This document shows positions 49,215 through 55,867 of a stretch of DNA of 64,000 nt, piece after piece. The translations under genes were made by a program, and so were the position numbers. Source of the DNA: Rhodospirillaceae bacterium (lineage in GTDB: Bacteria; Pseudomonadota; Alphaproteobacteria; MPNO01; UBA2964); contig PBIN01000015.1 in NCBI GenBank assembly GCA_002720855.1, positions 62,001 through 126,000 on the forward strand. Reading direction: 5' to 3'. How positions within the stretch are numbered: position 1 is the stretch's first letter; each line of letters opens with the position of its first letter. The notes below the pieces were generated by a model. The model searched no databases. It worked only from the letters and a program-made list of their open reading frames with translations, and had not been told where the DNA came from.

Positions 49215-50399
49215 CTACACCCGGTGGCCACTGGGCGGCAGCCCCATCAATACCTGACCGACCGGCTCATAGTTCGAGACATGCGACTGGCCCTGCGCCA
49301 GGACAGTGTGAATATCGCGGAACCGCCGTTCAAACGGATTAACCTCGAAGATCGCGTTAGTACCGCAGGCCTGGAATACAAAGTTGGCAGCCTCCTGAGC
49401 CTGGTTCATCGCATAGGTAATCGCCAGACGGAGACGCGCCCGCACATCGTAGGATGGCGGCTCGCCGGAACACTGTGCCTCCCAATATTCTTCAATCATC
49501 TCAACGAGGAACGCTCGGCTTGACCGTAATTTTGCCTCGTTGATCGAGACCTGCGACTGAATGACGGCATTTTCCCGCAAGACGGTTGTCATGCCGCCGC
49601 CAACCTTGGTGACAGCCAGTTCCTTGAAATCCTCCATCATAGTGCGGGCAATACCCAATGCCAGACCCGAAAACATGATGCCATAGCCGGTCAGCAACGG
49701 AATATTATAGAGCGGGCCTGGTTCGACACGATCCGGCTGGCTATCACGCCAGGTGGTATATTCTTCCGGCACAAACAGATCTTCGACTTTATAGTTGTCA
49801 CTACCGGTGCCTTTGAGCCCGATCACCTGCCACACATCGATTAACTCAGCACTCGATTTGGGGAACAGCATCGTCCGCATAATGGGTTTGCCATCATCGT
49901 CCTTAAGATGGTTTCCCTCTTCATCACAAACCCGGCTGTGACCGCCAAGCCATGTCGCGTTGCGGCTACCGCTGCCAAAACGCCATTCACCGGTAACCCT
50001 ATAGCCGCCATCAACAGGCACTGCCGTTGCTTTTGCAGGGGGGCCCCAAGCCAAAACCGCATCGCGAGGACCAAAGATATCCTTGCAAACCTCGTGAGAT
50101 ACGTATCCCGAACCCCAGGTGCACCCCGTTCCCTGCCCGACGCACCAAGCCGTGCTCGCATCCGCCTTCGCGACAGCTTCAACAGTTTGCATGAGCGTCA
50201 AAGGATCAGCCTCGCCACCGCCAATCGAGCGCGGCAAAGCCATCCGAAACAACTCAGCATCATGGAGCGCTTCCATAACCTCAGCGGTGACCTTACCCTG
50301 CGCTTCGGTTTCATCCGCCGCGCCGGCAATCATGTCCTGCAAGCCACACGCACGCTCAACCCAATCAATATCGTTCGTATTCGTTACGATCTGATCCAT
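49215..50399 (-). CDS. acyl-CoA dehydrogenase-fold flavoprotein, HsaA-like monooxygenase
   Basis: The protein has 394 residues. It has the acyl-CoA dehydrogenase fold without the catalytic Glu region of true dehydrogenases: ELFRMALPRSIGGGEADPLT, ASTAWCVGQGTG, GGYRVTGEWRFGSGSRNATW, WQVIGLKGTGSDNYKVED and ACGTNAIFEVNPFERRFRDI. This set is typical of the flavin-dependent monooxygenase group (HsaA, HpaH, DszC-like) that hydroxylates aromatics with reduced flavin. A flavin reductase gene is not seen. It lies 95 bases after a CMD-family gene and a selenoprotein redoxin gene on the same strand. Confidence 0.86.
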   Translation of the reverse strand: MDQIVTNTNDIDWVERACGLQDMIAGAADETEAQGKVTAEVMEALHDAELFRMALPRSIGGGEADPLTLMQTVEAVAKADASTAWCVGQGTGCTWGSGYVSHEVCKDIFGPRDAVLAWGPPAKATAVPVDGGYRVTGEWRFGSGSRNATWLGGHSRVCDEEGNHLKDDDGKPIMRTMLFPKSSAELIDVWQVIGLKGTGSDNYKVEDLFVPEEYTTWRDSQPDRVEPGPLYNIPLLTGYGIMFSGLALGIARTMMEDFKELAVTKVGGGMTTVLRENAVIQSQVSINEAKLRSSRAFLVEMIEEYWEAQCSGEPPSYDVRARLRLAITYAMNQAQEAANFVFQACGTNAIFEVNPFERRFRDIHTVLAQGQSHVSNYEPVGQVLMGLPPSGHRV

Positions 50400-50493: not shown

Positions 50494-51021
50494 CTATTTC
50501 TCGAGATCGATATCGAGGGCCTGAAAGATACGAGTGTGCATATTATAGGTACCGATCAATACCGTAAGACCCACGATGCCGGCCTCATCAAAATAGGCGG
50601 CGACCGCATCGTAAATCTCATCCGGGACTTGTATGTCGCGGGACATGCTGTCGGTATAAGCCAGAATCGCGCGATCTTTTTCGTCAAACAGGTCGCTGTT
50701 TTCCCAATCGCTGAGCGCATCGCATTCGGCAAGGGTTAGACCTTCAGCCTCAGCCAGCTCGGGAACATGCTGATTGATTACGTATTGGACGCGATTGAAA
50801 TAAGCGATGCGAATGATAACCAATTCGCGGATACGGCCATCCAGCCCAAGTTCCCACCGCACCATATTGAGATAATCAAACCAGCCTTTTGCGGCGGGTG
50901 GGTTGTGCAGCAGCATCTTATAAATATTTAAGAGCTTACCACGACGGCCTGCTTTTAGATTTTCGACAAACTCAGCGAGTTCCGGTTTGCCTTCCGCATC
51001 AACAAGAGAAACGCGCGCCAT
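50494..51021 (-). CDS. carboxymuconolactone decarboxylase (CMD) family protein
   Basis: The protein has 175 residues. The core MVRWELGLDGRIRELVIIRI then AYFNRVQYVINQHVPELA is the CMD helix pair. The Cys-x-x-Cys of AhpD-like peroxidases is absent (Tyr and Asn instead), so it should not be a peroxidase; the conserved His remains. It lies 47 bases after the redoxin selenoprotein gene on the same strand and is probably in one transcript with it. Confidence 0.85.
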   Translation of the reverse strand: MARVSLVDAEGKPELAEFVENLKAGRRGKLLNIYKMLLHNPPAAKGWFDYLNMVRWELGLDGRIRELVIIRIAYFNRVQYVINQHVPELAEAEGLTLAECDALSDWENSDLFDEKDRAILAYTDSMSRDIQVPDEIYDAVAAYFDEAGIVGLTVLIGTYNMHTRIFQALDIDLEK

Positions 51022-51068: not shown

Positions 51069-51557
51069 TTACTTCTGCGCTGCTTCCGCTTTCCGTCGTT
51101 CGAAAAGCTGCACCAGCTTAATGACATCCGCAGCATCCATTCTGCCAAGAGGCCCGGCGCTATAGCTGGATGCGACGACTTTCCCATCGTCGCCCAGCAG
51201 AATTTCAGTGGGCTGGATAATGCTCCGCTGATCTTCCCACCAGGACCCAAGCTGATCTGCCTGGTCCTTGGTAACGCCTTGGCCAACGGGGAACGAAACA
51301 TCGTCAGCCACCTGTTGTGCCTCATCGCCCGTATCAACGCTGGCAGCAATTACCTTTATGCCTTCAGCTTCGAGCGTGGATTTTTCATTTTCAAAACCGA
51401 CCAACTGCCGGCGGCAGTATGGTCACCAGTGACCTCGATAGAAGAGGATCAACTGGTACTTAGCATCTGCCAGATCTGGCAGTGTTGCCGTGCCGCCGCC
51501 GACCAGATTAAGGGTCATCGCGGGGAAGGCATCACCGAGATTTAACTTTTCTGCCAT
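51069..51557 (-). CDS. redoxin-family selenoprotein with U-x-x-C active site
   Basis: Read from ATG 51557 through an in-frame TGA at 51423-51425 to TAA at 51069, the protein has 162 residues with selenocysteine at position 45. The site reads LFYRGHWUPYCRRQLVGFEN, exactly the peroxiredoxin/AhpC-TSA position where relatives have Cys. Without the Sec reading a gene from GTG or ATG after it would lose the first third of the thioredoxin fold. A perfect hairpin directly after the UGA is a bacterial-type SECIS. It would reduce peroxides or thiols. It faces a deiodinase-like selenoprotein gene and lies near selA, selB and selC. Confidence 0.93.
51401..51422 (-). promoter_or_regulatory. SECIS-like hairpin of the redoxin selenoprotein
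   Basis: Immediately after the UGA, the mRNA has CCA-U-ACUGCC-GCC-GGCAGU-UGG: six perfect pairs, then three more after a single-base bulge. Bacterial SECIS elements lie just downstream of the UGA and bind SelB. The hairpin lies within the coding sequence for the PYCRRQL residues. Confidence 0.8.
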
Positions 51558-51604
51558 GATTTCCTACTCCAGTTACAAACATCTTCATTGTCACCGGGCC
51601 AATC

Positions 51605-51641
51605 ACAATTGCAAGAGCGACAATTGCTGAAAGAGACAATT
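51605..51641. repeat. three ACAATT direct repeats between the two selenoprotein genes
   Basis: ACAATTGC at 51605 and 51620 and ACAATT at 51636 are spaced 15 and 16 bases in the 128-base divergent region between the two selenoprotein genes. Regular spacing may mark a regulator site or a promoter; the word is short and could recur by chance. Confidence 0.35.
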
Positions 51642-51685
51642 CGGCCTATTCTCAAATGAGAGGAAAATTACTGGGAGGAAAATCA

Positions 51686-52360
51686 ATGGATCCCCGTTTT
51701 GAGCAGTTCAAGGACTTGGACTGGAACACAATGAGCTTTCCAGAAAAGCGCGACGTCTGGCTACAGATTTCGGATATGAGCGCTGAAGAGTTCGACGCAA
51801 TGATGGCGGCGCAGAAGGCCCGGCAAGACCAGGTACCCAAGGTCGGCGACATGGCGCCAGATTTTGAATTGGAGCGACTCGACCGGACAAAAAAACGCAC
51901 CGGCGAGTATGTAAAACTCTCGGATTTAAGAGGAAAGTCGGTAGCGCTCTGTTTCGGCTCTTACACATGACCGCCATTTCGTGATCAGTCCGTGCGACTG
52001 AACGAAATTTACGAAGCAAACAAAGACAATATCGAGTTCTTCCTGATCTATGTATGTGAAGCACACCCTTCTGACGGCTGGCAAACGCTGCAAAATCTCG
52101 AAACCGAGATTTTCTTTAAGACACCGACGACTCCGGACGAACGTGCTGAGATTGGCAATGCCTGTCAGATCGGGCTTGATCTCAAATATCCCATGCTCAT
52201 CGACAATATGGATGATGAGGTGGAGAACAAATATGTCGCCGCCCCCATCCGGCTGTTTGTCATCGATCCTGACGGCAAGATTACCTACGCTGGCAAAGAG
52301 GGCCCTCATCTGTTTGATCCCGATGGCTGGGAAGAAGCCATTAAGGAGCAAACCGCCTAA
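51686..52360 (+). CDS. iodothyronine deiodinase-like selenoprotein
   Basis: Read from ATG 51686 (GGGAGGAA five bases upstream) through TGA 51968-51970 to TAA 52360, the protein has 224 residues with selenocysteine at 95. The thioredoxin-fold motif ALCFGSYTUPPFRDQ and, 30 residues later, FLIYVCEAHPSDGWQ match vertebrate deiodinases (FGSCTUPPF and EAHPSDGW). PDFELERLD begins the fold. No signal peptide or membrane anchor is present, unlike the animal enzymes, so it is cytoplasmic. It could reduce organic halides, thiols or peroxides; activity is unknown. A SECIS-like hairpin follows the UGA, and selA starts 34 bases after its stop. Confidence 0.94.
51978..52006 (+). promoter_or_regulatory. SECIS-like hairpin of the deiodinase-like gene
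   Basis: Seven bases after the UGA the mRNA forms UUCGU (51978-51982) with ACGAA (52002-52006), an internal loop, AGUC (51987-51990) with GACU (51996-51999), and a five-base loop CGUGC. The loop lies about 22 bases from the UGA, within the distance seen for bacterial SECIS elements. Confidence 0.65.
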
Positions 52361-52393
52361 AGCTTTCCATAATCTATGCCGGTGGGGTTTGGT

Positions 52394-53818
52394 ATGACCG
52401 ACACCACCGGCATTCTTCTCTCTTCCATACCCTCGGTCGATAAACTTCTCCGCACAGCTGAAGCGGAAACTCTTATTGATGCATTTGGCCGCCAGCCGGT
52501 AACCGACGCTGTGCGCAGTGACCTCGCACACCTTCGGCAATCTATTGCAAAGAATAGCGGCGTTACTGAGAAACAGATTTCGGGTGACAGCATCCTTGCA
52601 CGTGTTACAGCCACGCTGGAATCCAACATTACCCCCTCACTGAGACCCGTATTCAACCTCACGGGCACAGTCCTGCACACCAACCTCGGACGGGCACCAC
52701 TACCAGAAGAGGCCGTTGAAGCGATCGCCGCCGTATCACGCGGTGCCAGCAATCTCGAATATAATCTGGAGACCGGGCGGCGCGGCGACCGTGACGTTCA
52801 CCTGGAGGAAAAATTTGCCCAACTTATCGGTGCGGAGGCGGTCACCATCGTTAACAACAACGCTGCTGCCGTGCTTCTAATCCTCAATGCTTTGGCGCTC
52901 CGCAAAGAGGTCATTGTTTCGCGGGGCGAGCTAATCGAGATTGGCGGTGCCTTTCGCATTCCCGATATCATGTCCCGTGCTGGTGCCAAGCTTCGCGAAG
53001 TCGGTACTACAAACAGAACCCACGCCAGGGATTTTGAAGAAGCGATCAGTTCCAGGACTGCTTTGTTGATGAAAGTCCACACCAGCAACTATGAGGTTCA
53101 AGGATTTACAGCTGCGGTATCGGAAACTGAGTTGGCCGAAATCGCCCACAAAAACGATCTGCCCTTCGTGATCGATCTCGGCAGTGGGACCATGACTGAT
53201 TTAGAGCAGTTCGGATTACCCCACGAACCGACCGCGCAGGAAGCCCTCGCCGCCGGTGCGGATTTGGTAAGCTTTAGCGGCGATAAACTTCTCGGCGGAC
53301 CCCAGGCGGGGATCATAGCCGGACGCGCTGACCTCATCGCGAAAATCAAAAAGAATCCGATGAAGCGCGCTATGCGCTGCGACAAGATGACGATCGCAGC
53401 GCTTGAAACCATCCTTCGGCTTTACGCCGATCCTGACAGGCTTGCCGAGCGCATACCAGCCCTGCGCTTGCTGGCTCGAAAGCGGTACAGCATCAAAGAA
53501 ACAGCGAAGCGAATTGAAACCGTATTGGCAGCCGCTCTGGGCGAAAAATTCGAAGTGCTACAACAAGACTGCCAAAGCCAGATCGGTAGCGGCTCTCTTC
53601 CAACCGAGCGCCTCGACAGTATCGCGCTGGTTGTTCGTCCAACCGCTGCGAAAGGTATCGGAACCGCGTTAAAGCGGCTCGCCACAGCTTTCCGTCGATT
53701 GCCTGTCCCTGTAATCGGACGGATACAGGATGATGCACTTTGGTTGGATTTACGGTGCCTTGAATCCGAAATTGAAGATGCTTTTTCCGGCCAGTTAAAA
53801 AACCTCGCCATAAAATGA
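52394..53818 (+). CDS. selA: L-seryl-tRNA(Sec) selenium transferase SelA
   Basis: The protein has 474 residues from ATG 52394 (GGTGGGG upstream); ATG 52376 would add six residues. SelA turns Ser-tRNA(Sec) into selenocysteyl-tRNA with selenophosphate. Visible: VDKLLRTAEAETLIDAFGRQ at the N-terminus that binds tRNA, NLTGTVLHTNLGRAPLPEEA, SNLEYNLETGRRGDRD and VTIVNNNAAAVLLILNALA, and the PLP lysine in FSGDKLLGGPQAG (Lys298). It overlaps selB by four bases (ATGA). The island also contains two Sec-protein genes and selC. Confidence 0.96.
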   Translation: MTDTTGILLSSIPSVDKLLRTAEAETLIDAFGRQPVTDAVRSDLAHLRQSIAKNSGVTEKQISGDSILARVTATLESNITPSLRPVFNLTGTVLHTNLGRAPLPEEAVEAIAAVSRGASNLEYNLETGRRGDRDVHLEEKFAQLIGAEAVTIVNNNAAAVLLILNALALRKEVIVSRGELIEIGGAFRIPDIMSRAGAKLREVGTTNRTHARDFEEAISSRTALLMKVHTSNYEVQGFTAAVSETELAEIAHKNDLPFVIDLGSGTMTDLEQFGLPHEPTAQEALAAGADLVSFSGDKLLGGPQAGIIAGRADLIAKIKKNPMKRAMRCDKMTIAALETILRLYADPDRLAERIPALRLLARKRYSIKETAKRIETVLAAALGEKFEVLQQDCQSQIGSGSLPTERLDSIALVVRPTAAKGIGTALKRLATAFRRLPVPVIGRIQDDALWLDLRCLESEIEDAFSGQLKNLAIK

Positions 53819-55728
53819 TAATCGCGACCTCAGGCCATATTGATCACGGTAAATCCGTTTTGGTTAAGGCGTTAACCGGCGTCGACACCGATAGGCTGCC
53901 GGAAGAAAAAGCGCGCGGAATCTCTATTGATCTCGGCTATGCCTATCACAGGCTGGATCAGGACAATGTTCTCGGGTTTGTAGACGTTCCGGGTCATGAA
54001 AAGTTTGTCCGCAACATGCTTGCCGGGGTTACGGGCATTGACTACGCACTGTTGGTTATTGCTGCCGATGACGGCCCAATGCCCCAAACCGAAGAACATC
54101 TCGCGATCCTTGATTTGTTAGGAATTTCCGCCGGGGCCGTCGCCATTACCAAAACCGACCGCGTCGATACCGACAGGGTTTTGGAGGTCATTGAACTCAC
54201 AGAATTGCTTCTCGATGGCACAACTCTTGAAGGTGCTTCCATTTTTCCGGTATCCGGCATTACTGGCGATGGCGTCTCTGAACTACAAGCCCATTTGGAC
54301 ACCGCCGCTGCGGCGTTCGACAACACTCAACGCGATGGTAATTTCCGCCTCGCTATCGACCGCCGTTTTACGGTGCCGGGGGCAGGGCTGGTCGTAACGG
54401 GCAGTGTTTTTTCGGGCACGGTTGCCGTTGGTGATCAACTCGTTCTGTCTCCAACTGGCCATCAGGCACGTGTACGGGGTATCCATGCGCAGAATCAGGA
54501 CGCCGAAACCGGCCGCGTCGGTCAACGTTGCGCGCTAAATATTGTTGGCTCCGATCTCGGTAAAGAAGATGTCCATCGAGGCAATTGGGTATTGTCTGAA
54601 GCCGCGCATGCACCAACACGACGCTTTGACGCGCGCATCCGTTTGCTTAGATCCGAACCGCGGTCTTTAAAACACTGGACACCCGTTCACCTCCATATTG
54701 GTGCCGCCGACATTAGCGCGCGGGTTGCTTTGCTTGACGGCAAAACGATAGCTCCAGGCGATTCAGCGATCGTGCAGTTGGTACTCGATGAACCCATTGG
54801 TGCTTTGCATGGCGACCGGCTGATTCTGCGTGACCAATCGGCCCGTCGCACAATGGCAGGAGGCAACGTAATCGATTCGTTCGCTCCGGCACGCGGACGA
54901 TCAAAGCCTGAGCGCCAGGCCGCGGTTGCCGCCATGGACACCGACAACCCCATTGAAGCGCTTTCGAATTTGCTCGAAGTCCAGGTCAATGGTGTCGATC
55001 TCAGGCAGTTTGCAATCAGCCGAAATCTGACAACCGGTCAAGCGGCAGCGCTTTGGCCGCAGCTTGATATGGAAGTGATTTCGAATAGCCATAGTGATAT
55101 CGGGATCTCACGTTCGCGATGGAATTCGCTCACAGACGACATTATAAAGTCGCTCGCGGAATGGCACACGGAGAGACCCGATCAGCCCGGGCCTGCGGAA
55201 AACACATTGCGCCTGTCTTTCGACCCACGACCGACGATCCCCGTTTTTAGTGCTGCTGTCGGGAGTCTGGCAGCAAAGAACAAGGTTATAATCGCCAATA
55301 GGCAACTCCGCCTGCCAAGCCATCAGCCCGGCATGAACCTTCAGGACAAAAAGCTCTGGTCTGATGTTCGTCAAACCATGGAGGAAGCGGAGTTGCGTCC
55401 CCTTTCACTCCACGATGTTGCCGAGGACATGGGAATTAAGGCAACGGCTCTCACGGCGTTTATGCGTCGGGCTGCCTCCACCGGATTTGTCATTCAAGTT
55501 TCCAAAAGCCGTTTCCTTCTGCCTGACGCGGTCCAGGAACTCGCGGCTATCGCCGAGGCCCTAGCGGCTGAAGGTGAAATTACCGCCGCGGAATTCCGCA
55601 ATCGCTCAGGTATTGGACGCAATATGGCAATTGAGATTTTGGAATTTTTTGATAAGGCCGGGCTGACCAAACGTAATGGCAATTCGCGCGAAATCATCAA
55701 ACCGGCGGCGGAAATATTCGGTGGTTAG
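53815..55728 (+). CDS. selB: selenocysteine-specific elongation factor SelB
   Basis: The protein has 637 residues, slightly longer than in E. coli. The GTPase domain shows GHIDHGKSVLVKALTG, VDVPGHEKFVRNMLAGVTG and AITKTDR; EF-Tu-like beta domains follow; the C-terminal part has four winged-helix modules that bind the SECIS hairpin (for example ELAAIAEALAAEGEITAAEF and IEILEFFDKAGLTKRNG). It brings Sec-tRNA(Sec) to UGA at the ribosome. It overlaps selA and is followed 43 bases on by selC. Confidence 0.96.
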   Translation: MIIATSGHIDHGKSVLVKALTGVDTDRLPEEKARGISIDLGYAYHRLDQDNVLGFVDVPGHEKFVRNMLAGVTGIDYALLVIAADDGPMPQTEEHLAILDLLGISAGAVAITKTDRVDTDRVLEVIELTELLLDGTTLEGASIFPVSGITGDGVSELQAHLDTAAAAFDNTQRDGNFRLAIDRRFTVPGAGLVVTGSVFSGTVAVGDQLVLSPTGHQARVRGIHAQNQDAETGRVGQRCALNIVGSDLGKEDVHRGNWVLSEAAHAPTRRFDARIRLLRSEPRSLKHWTPVHLHIGAADISARVALLDGKTIAPGDSAIVQLVLDEPIGALHGDRLILRDQSARRTMAGGNVIDSFAPARGRSKPERQAAVAAMDTDNPIEALSNLLEVQVNGVDLRQFAISRNLTTGQAAALWPQLDMEVISNSHSDIGISRSRWNSLTDDIIKSLAEWHTERPDQPGPAENTLRLSFDPRPTIPVFSAAVGSLAAKNKVIIANRQLRLPSHQPGMNLQDKKLWSDVRQTMEEAELRPLSLHDVAEDMGIKATALTAFMRRAASTGFVIQVSKSRFLLPDAVQELAAIAEALAAEGEITAAEFRNRSGIGRNMAIEILEFFDKAGLTKRNGNSREIIKPAAEIFGG

Positions 55729-55771: not shown

Positions 55772-55867
55772 GGAAGGGATTCGTGAGCCGGTGCTGCGCT
55801 CGGGCTTCAAACCCGGTGAGGGGCGTTAAACGTGCCTGGTGGGTTCAACTCCCACTCTCTTCCGCCA
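55772..55867 (+). tRNA. selC: tRNA-Sec, anticodon TCA
   Basis: The 96-base gene begins GGAAGGGA and ends TCTCTTCCGCCA. The acceptor stem has eight pairs (one G-U), the length typical of bacterial tRNA-Sec, with discriminator G73 and encoded CCA. The anticodon loop CTTCAAA carries TCA at 55807-55809. The extra arm is long (from about 55815 to 55843) and the T-arm reads GGTTCAACTCC. Its ends match the E. coli selC ends (GGAAG and CTTCCGCCA). A run of nine T follows directly. Confidence 0.97.

Follow-up and report, generated by a model that had tools for sequence, protein, structure and literature searches.

A study of the Sargasso Sea in 2005 described four selenocysteine (Sec) and six cysteine (Cys) forms of bacterial deiodinase-like sequences, for which a redox role was suggested and whose function the authors expected to differ from that of the animal deiodinases (PMC1088965). 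The GOS study of 2008 counted 22 Sec and 21 Cys forms and gave no motif for them (PMC2398784), and reviews of 2022 and 2026 list the family with the motif UxxC (PMC9312934, PMC13188914); since there is no motif in the GOS list, UxxC does not define the family. The descriptions of the family in these four papers contain no demonstrated function and do not mention a member linked to selA-selB-selC and to a divergent gene for a Sec AhpC-like protein, and among the further papers listed in literature searches no title or abstract opening announces a test of a bacterial member. The mechanism of the animal deiodinases is covered in PMC9141512 and PMC11592359, and the Dio3 numbering and residue roles used here are those of PMC7506546.

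In this report we describe a deiodinase-like gene, a new example of the bacterial kind known from 2005, in a 64,000-nucleotide stretch of a Rhodospirillaceae contig (PBIN01000015.1), referred to as the window. The locus consists of the following features.

51686..52360, + strand: predicted gene of a deiodinase-like selenoprotein of 224 aa, Sec encoded by codon 95, ending at TAA
51968..51970, + strand: in-frame UGA (Sec95), codon 95
51976..52008, + strand: SECIS hairpin, apical stem 51986-51990 paired with 51996-52000, loop CGUGC
51558..51685, no strand: divergent intergenic region, 128 bases
51606-51627, no strand: CAATTGC-N8-CAATTGC, within the divergent intergenic region, conserved in the genus
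51069..51557, - strand: second predicted selenoprotein gene, AhpC/TSA-like, 162 aa, GHWUPYC, UGA at 51423-51425
50494..51021, - strand: carboxymuconolactone decarboxylase family (CMD) gene, no CxxC, adjoining the AhpC-like gene
49215-50399, - strand: acyl-CoA dehydrogenase-like gene, after CMD on that strand
52376..53818, + strand: selA, start perhaps at 52394
53815..55728, + strand: selB
55772..55867, + strand: tRNA-Sec (selC)

The open reading frame at 51686-52360 (+) reads through a single TGA, ends at TAA, and has a Shine-Dalgarno-like GGGAGG upstream of its ATG at 51686. An initial annotation of this DNA had proposed a deiodinase-like selenoprotein, soluble and cytoplasmic, with SYTUPPF and EAHPSDGW motifs 30 residues apart. 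Both motifs were found, at residues 92-98 (Sec being residue 95) and 125-132, the spacing from Sec95 to Glu125 is 30 residues as claimed, and PF00837 matches the product. The same annotation took the two motifs to define animal deiodinases, which needs correction, as they belong to a bacterial family known since 2005 (PMC1088965). The membrane-anchor check was made by hydropathy alone; the highest 19-residue Kyte-Doolittle mean is 0.68, which leaves the protein without a strongly hydrophobic segment, and on this measure an N-terminal anchor is absent. A soluble, cytosolic protein, as had been proposed, agrees with the sequence.

Pfam T4_deiodinase (PF00837) matches the protein with an E value of 8.4e-23 and 81.3 bits (cut-off 27); AhpC-TSA (4.5e-13, 49.7 bits) is above its cut-off but second to PF00837, and Redoxin is likewise above its own. 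The NCBIfam model NF038285, 'deiodinase family protein', gives 163.9 bits, below its cut-off of 250, in a match that spans profile positions 173-340 of 347 only; this model is a longer subfamily and not the whole deiodinase-like family. Mouse Dio3 (1.7e-12) and Dio2 (1.8e-11) are the best PDB sequence matches of the single query, and a search with a 37-homologue profile lifts them to 3.3e-29 and 2e-28, the next chain being ResA at 1.3e-9. Ordinary AhpC/TSA, SCO or ResA membership, the first two of which the initial annotation had named as the outcome that would count against it, is ruled out by the Pfam scores (81.3 versus 49.7 bits) and by the 37-homologue profile search, with Dio3 and Dio2 at the top. 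These comparisons support placing the protein in the PF00837 bacterial deiodinase-like family, where the name fits the family and the reaction is putative. The phylogeny that had been suggested does separate mouse Dio2 and Dio3 from the group of bacterial UPPF proteins, but the tree joins long branches there, so that it carries no conclusion on the origin of the animal deiodinases.

Homologues are present in 11 of the 13 genomes of the family that were searched, and all 22 homologous places hold one in-frame TGA. Both flanks of the UGA are under purifying selection, and 3' of it the nonsynonymous/synonymous ratio is 0.017-0.100 in six of seven genus comparisons, the seventh being saturated. 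A pseudogene or a sequencing-error stop is ruled out by the TGA in all 22 places together with the purifying selection after it. The Sec apparatus is complete, with selA, selB and tRNA-Sec (55772-55867, 67.6 bits) in the window and selD elsewhere in the genome, on the same contig (C15:186762-187679, 308 bits). A tRNA-Sec scan of 28 genomes gave strong matches (66-77 bits) in 15/15 genomes with a UGA-bearing homologue; among 10 genomes with Cys-type homologues only, tRNA-Sec is present in four and weak tRNA-like matches (<50 bits) in six, and three genomes without a homologue also have tRNA-Sec.

The window RNA after the UGA folds into a hairpin with GU in its five-base loop (-13.3 kcal/mol, z -2.43). 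Across 29 distinct homologous stretches (each distinct UPPF-form DNA stretch contributing one row), CCGTG at the loop is invariant, and the apical stem of five pairs is intact in 98.6% of cells. This stem has 24 double-sided cells, against a shuffled mean of 9.9, and a covariation of 0.489 against 0.137, values that 0/500 shuffles and no slid version reached; the clearest covariation joins the first position of a Gln, Lys or Glu codon to the third position of a Leu codon (CAG..CTG, AAG..CTT, GAG..CTC). A 13-pair long stem is weaker among the other members (80.1% of cells), and the lower stem is therefore not general. All 29 stretches fold better than the mean of their synonymous-codon shuffles, with a mean z of -1.8 and several near zero. 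By comparison only, a bacterial SECIS is present downstream of the UGA at the catalytic position. Every computational test supports the decoding of UGA 95 as Sec, and comparison thus points to a true selenoprotein gene; the Pfam score, the TGA kept in 22 places, the low ratio, the covarying SECIS and the Sec machinery argue against chance.

The divergent gene at 51069-51557, unannotated-looking, encodes an AhpC/TSA-like protein (AhpC-TSA E 3.6e-19) whose GHWUPYC is a UxxC motif, and the 48 bases counted from its UGA form a stable RNA hairpin (-19.0 kcal/mol, z -4.40). Ten loci of the genus were compared, namely the window, L025-L031, L082 and L088 (L087 repeats L025). The order dio-selA-selB is found in 10/10 and the divergent Sec ahpC in nine, the tenth contig beginning inside the gene. 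In G124, a genome of another family, a homologue with 56% identity is again divergent to a Sec ahpC and adjoins tRNA-Sec, selB and selA, with the sel genes on the opposite side relative to the window locus; the Sec ahpC is retained, UGA included, both across the genus and in G124. Among 20 fetched regions the sel/ahpC linkage is present in four, 14 have a homologue without it, and two (of the UPYC form) gave no homologue at tblastn 1e-8, so the linkage marks one clade and not the whole family. A promoter and terminator scan returned a smaller number of sites than it did in shuffled sequence, with nothing between the dio gene and selA, whose second ATG (52394) is preceded by GGTGGGG. The CAATTGC-N8-CAATTGC repeat in the window is its only exact occurrence in the genome; it is conserved in the genus, apart from L088, where the copy is degenerate. 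Overlapping -35 regions or an operator may account for it. The CMD protein (50494-51021) was considered as an AhpD-type thiol donor and ruled out, its sole Cys being residue 100 and a CxxC being absent.

PF00837 occurs in 19/385 genomes of the class, 11 of these 19 with a UGA frame (G385, with several stops in its frame, was left out of this count), and in 10/398 genomes of a phylum sample. A second Sec homologue of the genome itself, a member of clade B with EAHPTDGS in place of EAHPSDGW, lies at C3:26522 (L001 1390-2106) beside a PhyH dioxygenase gene. Up to four homologues per genome were found, in G007, where one locus (L080 8597-10996, on C15) contains a divergent pair of Sec deiodinase-like genes, a regulator of IclR type lying between them or next to them, and an adjoining TRAP transporter (DctM) gene. 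Eight of nine named relatives are alphaproteobacterial MAGs (labelled Rhodospirillaceae, Rhodospirillales or Alphaproteobacteria) and one is labelled Flavobacteriales; several carry marine sample names. The contig with the Flavobacteriales label (L030) has the alphaproteobacterial locus at 89% identity and was probably wrongly binned. Deiodinase-like C-terminal parts that lack the Sec region, in L075 (12805-13170, G315) and L055, are possibly decayed duplicates, and one of them has an intact Sec copy 3 kb away. Another Sec form of this class, with GSFTUPYC (UxxC), was seen in L049 and L050 (G205, G297), about 16 kb from a tRNA-Sec gene on the same contig. The viral contigs scanned held no relative and PHROGs no family match, and a plasmid scan gave two weak matches only, one of them annotated deiodinase-like in Mycolicibacterium. 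On that Mycolicibacterium plasmid (L092 3339-4726) the deiodinase-like gene overlaps a gene for a CMD protein that bears CEYC, and has a glutaredoxin-domain gene near it.

Residues were compared with Dio3 in an alignment (A3) of 30 Sec rows and 7 Cys rows. L030 (N at the Sec codon), L049/L050 (UPYC Sec form) and L055/L056 (matches without the Sec region) were left out of the Sec rows, and the short forms L044-L047 and L057-L060, and L048, out of the Cys rows; one homologue list mixes matches of both window selenoproteins, as it came from a joint query. The catalytic core, Ser-x-Thr-Sec-Pro-Pro-Phe with Tyr197, Glu200 and His202, is complete in the window protein and is kept in 29-30 of the 30 Sec forms. 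Dio3 Ser167 corresponds to Ser92 (30/30), Thr169 to Thr94 (29/30), Sec170 to Sec95 and Pro171/172 and Phe173 to residues 96-98 (30/30 each); Tyr197, Glu200 and His202 are Tyr122, Glu125 and His127, and Arg225 and Arg260 are Arg153 and Arg189 (again 30/30 each), while Trp207 is Trp132, conserved in 17/30. The proximal Cys168 of Dio3 is Tyr93 here, with either Tyr or Phe throughout and Ala in Dio2, the distal Cys239 is Tyr168, and His219 and Phe258 are Pro147 and Pro187, each Pro in 30/30 Sec forms. Arg275, of the Arg275/Lys thyronine clamp, is Glu205 and variable in the family (Dio2 has Lys), and His219 (His174 of DIO1) is described as important in substrate binding (PMC7506546). In the alignment, the Sec forms thus share the catalytic core of the deiodinases and not the residues linked to thyronine binding or the proximal Cys.

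Besides the Sec column, Cys160 is the one invariant Cys column of the 30 Sec forms, present in 30/30 of them versus 1/7 Cys forms. Two other candidates for a resolving residue, Cys89 (9/30 Sec forms) and Cys124 (6/30), were ruled out. UPPF, with no Cys at +3, is found in 30/30 Sec forms, and the UxxC motif is thus absent from them. The peroxiredoxin motif is PxxxT/SxxC, of which the protein has one half, with Ser92 at -3, whereas Leu88 takes the place of Pro at -7.

The structure prediction that the initial annotation had called for gave an AlphaFold2 model with a mean pLDDT of 93.6, extra helices at residues 1-50, and Cys160 on helix 150-163. Dio2 (9h48, E 4.2e-13) and then Dio3 (4tr3, 2.4e-12) rank first in Foldseek, and the VIA-align Z scores are near-tied: 19.7 for Dio2 (175 residues, 3.3 A), 18.6 for Dio3 (165 residues, 2.4 A), 18.7 for a Bacillus ResA-like protein (137 residues, 2.0 A) and 18.5 for AhpE (142 residues, 1.9 A). 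The deiodinases align over a larger share of the model than the ResA-like protein or AhpE do, and fold alone does not separate deiodinase, peroxiredoxin and ResA-type functions.

Our favoured explanation, placed ahead of a dehalogenase and then of a thiol-disulfide reductase, and to which we give about an even chance, is that the protein is a cytosolic Sec peroxidase or reductase with Cys160 as its resolving residue. UGA 95 would be decoded by SelB and tRNA-Sec through the hairpin just downstream, and the selenolate of Sec95 would be held by Ser92, Thr94 and the Tyr122-Glu125-His127 network. It would attack an electrophilic substrate, most likely a peroxide, to give an oxidised selenium species, which Cys160 on helix 150-163 would attack in turn to form a Sec95-Cys160 selenenylsulfide, to be reduced by a cellular thiol donor. 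The protein would then work like an atypical two-Cys peroxiredoxin or a GPX with a deiodinase active site, and the divergent GHWUPYC Sec protein may be its partner in the same selenium-dependent redox response. Cys160 is proposed as a candidate for resolving Sec95; the resolving Cys92 of PtGPX5 sits on the equivalent of helix alpha-D (PMC7506546). In DIO1 the catalytic cycle is reported not to involve the distal Cys194 (PMC9141512); a distal Cys is thus not necessarily a resolving one. Against the peroxidase reading stand the half-matched peroxiredoxin motif and a fold shared with thiol reductases, and against a single housekeeping peroxidase stand the up to four homologues per genome (G007), which better fit substrate diversification.

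A reductive dehalogenase is possible but unlikely; Sec95 would take the iodine or bromine of a haloaromatic, as animal deiodinases do, and the selenol would be restored by Cys160 or a small thiol. It draws on PF00837 with Dio2 and Dio3 as best matches, on the active-site Ser, Thr, Sec, Tyr, Glu and His whose roles come from Dio3 mutants (PMC7506546), on marine relatives, on several paralogues per genome and on nearby catabolic genes. The initial annotation had pointed to aromatic-degradation genes in the region, and a dienelactone hydrolase and CMD are indeed close by in the window; the neighbours of the paralogues differ, however (PhyH, acyl-CoA dehydrogenases, a TRAP transporter, flagellin and others, with no common function), so gene context gives little support to a single halo-aromatic role, and no haloaromatic pathway is common to them. 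Further against it, the positions of His219 and Phe258 have Pro in 30/30 Sec forms, Arg275 is not kept, and the authors of 2005 foresaw a function unlike that of the animal deiodinases (PMC1088965). The wider proposal that the UPPF proteins are reductive dehalogenases of marine iodo- and bromo-organics, with Cys160 recycling a selenenyl halide and the homologues dividing the substrates among them, we regard as rather improbable.

A Sec thiol-disulfide or sulfoxide-type reductase of ResA/TlpA-like kind, acting on proteins or small disulfides and not on peroxides, would suit the near tie with the ResA-like fold (Z 18.7) and the next sequence matches. We consider it unlikely on balance, given a UPPF in 30/30 Sec forms with neither CxxC nor UxxC, and a protein with no signal or membrane segment.

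The gene might also, alongside an enzyme role, act as a Sec-sensing leader, in which a shortage of charged tRNA-Sec would cause premature termination at UGA 95, uncouple selA-selB translation and so tune the sel operon. The gene precedes selA in 10/10 genus loci and ends 15 bases before it (33 before the second ATG), a gap that holds no terminator-like site, but in G124 the homologue is at the opposite flank of the sel genes and 14/20 fetched regions have a homologue with no sel gene near, which makes this role quite doubtful. That the TGA at 51968-51970 is a genuine stop, with a relic frame downstream and no selenoprotein, has only the existence of a stop codon in its favour and is scarcely credible against a TGA retained in all 22 family places, purifying selection 3' of it, a covarying SECIS hairpin and adjoining Sec machinery.

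The role of the bacterial deiodinase-like proteins has been a question since 2005, and this locus makes it testable, as it brings its own SECIS, Sec machinery and Sec partner gene and its protein looks soluble. Cys160, with the missing His219, Arg275 and proximal Cys, offers a means to separate shared selenium chemistry from thyroid-hormone binding. If the favoured peroxidase is correct, the animal deiodinases are best viewed as a re-used seleno-peroxidase. If the enzyme were a dehalogenase, the origin of deiodination would shift back to bacteria; were this true of the UPPF proteins, deiodination chemistry would be older than thyroid hormones, and the thyronine-binding His219 and Arg275 would be animal additions.

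Compared with known systems, the protein shares with the bacterial deiodinase-like selenoproteins, as they are described, PF00837, an active-site Sec, a bacterial SECIS and an origin in marine bacteria, and differs from the UxxC of the reviews in its UPPF and distant invariant Cys160. With vertebrate Dio1-3 (4tr3, 9h48) it has in common the Trx fold, Sec-Pro-Pro-Phe and Glu-Ala-His-Pro-Ser-Asp-Gly-Trp, whereas it has no strongly hydrophobic segment and has extra helices at 1-50; Ser167, Thr169, Tyr197, Glu200, His202, Arg225 and Arg260 of Dio3 are retained, and His219, Arg275, Phe258, the proximal Cys168 and the distal Cys239 are not. ResA/TlpA proteins act outside the cytoplasm; they share the Trx fold and are the next-best sequence matches, but the protein of the window gene has no CxxC or UxxC and no export signal was seen in it. 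The peroxiredoxins and AhpE are near-tied in fold (AhpE Z 18.5), with AhpC-TSA and Redoxin above their cut-offs, but score below PF00837 and have a Pro at -7 where Leu88 stands here. The atypical two-Cys peroxidases resemble it in that the resolving Cys of PtGPX5 is described on the helix corresponding to that of Cys160 (PMC7506546).
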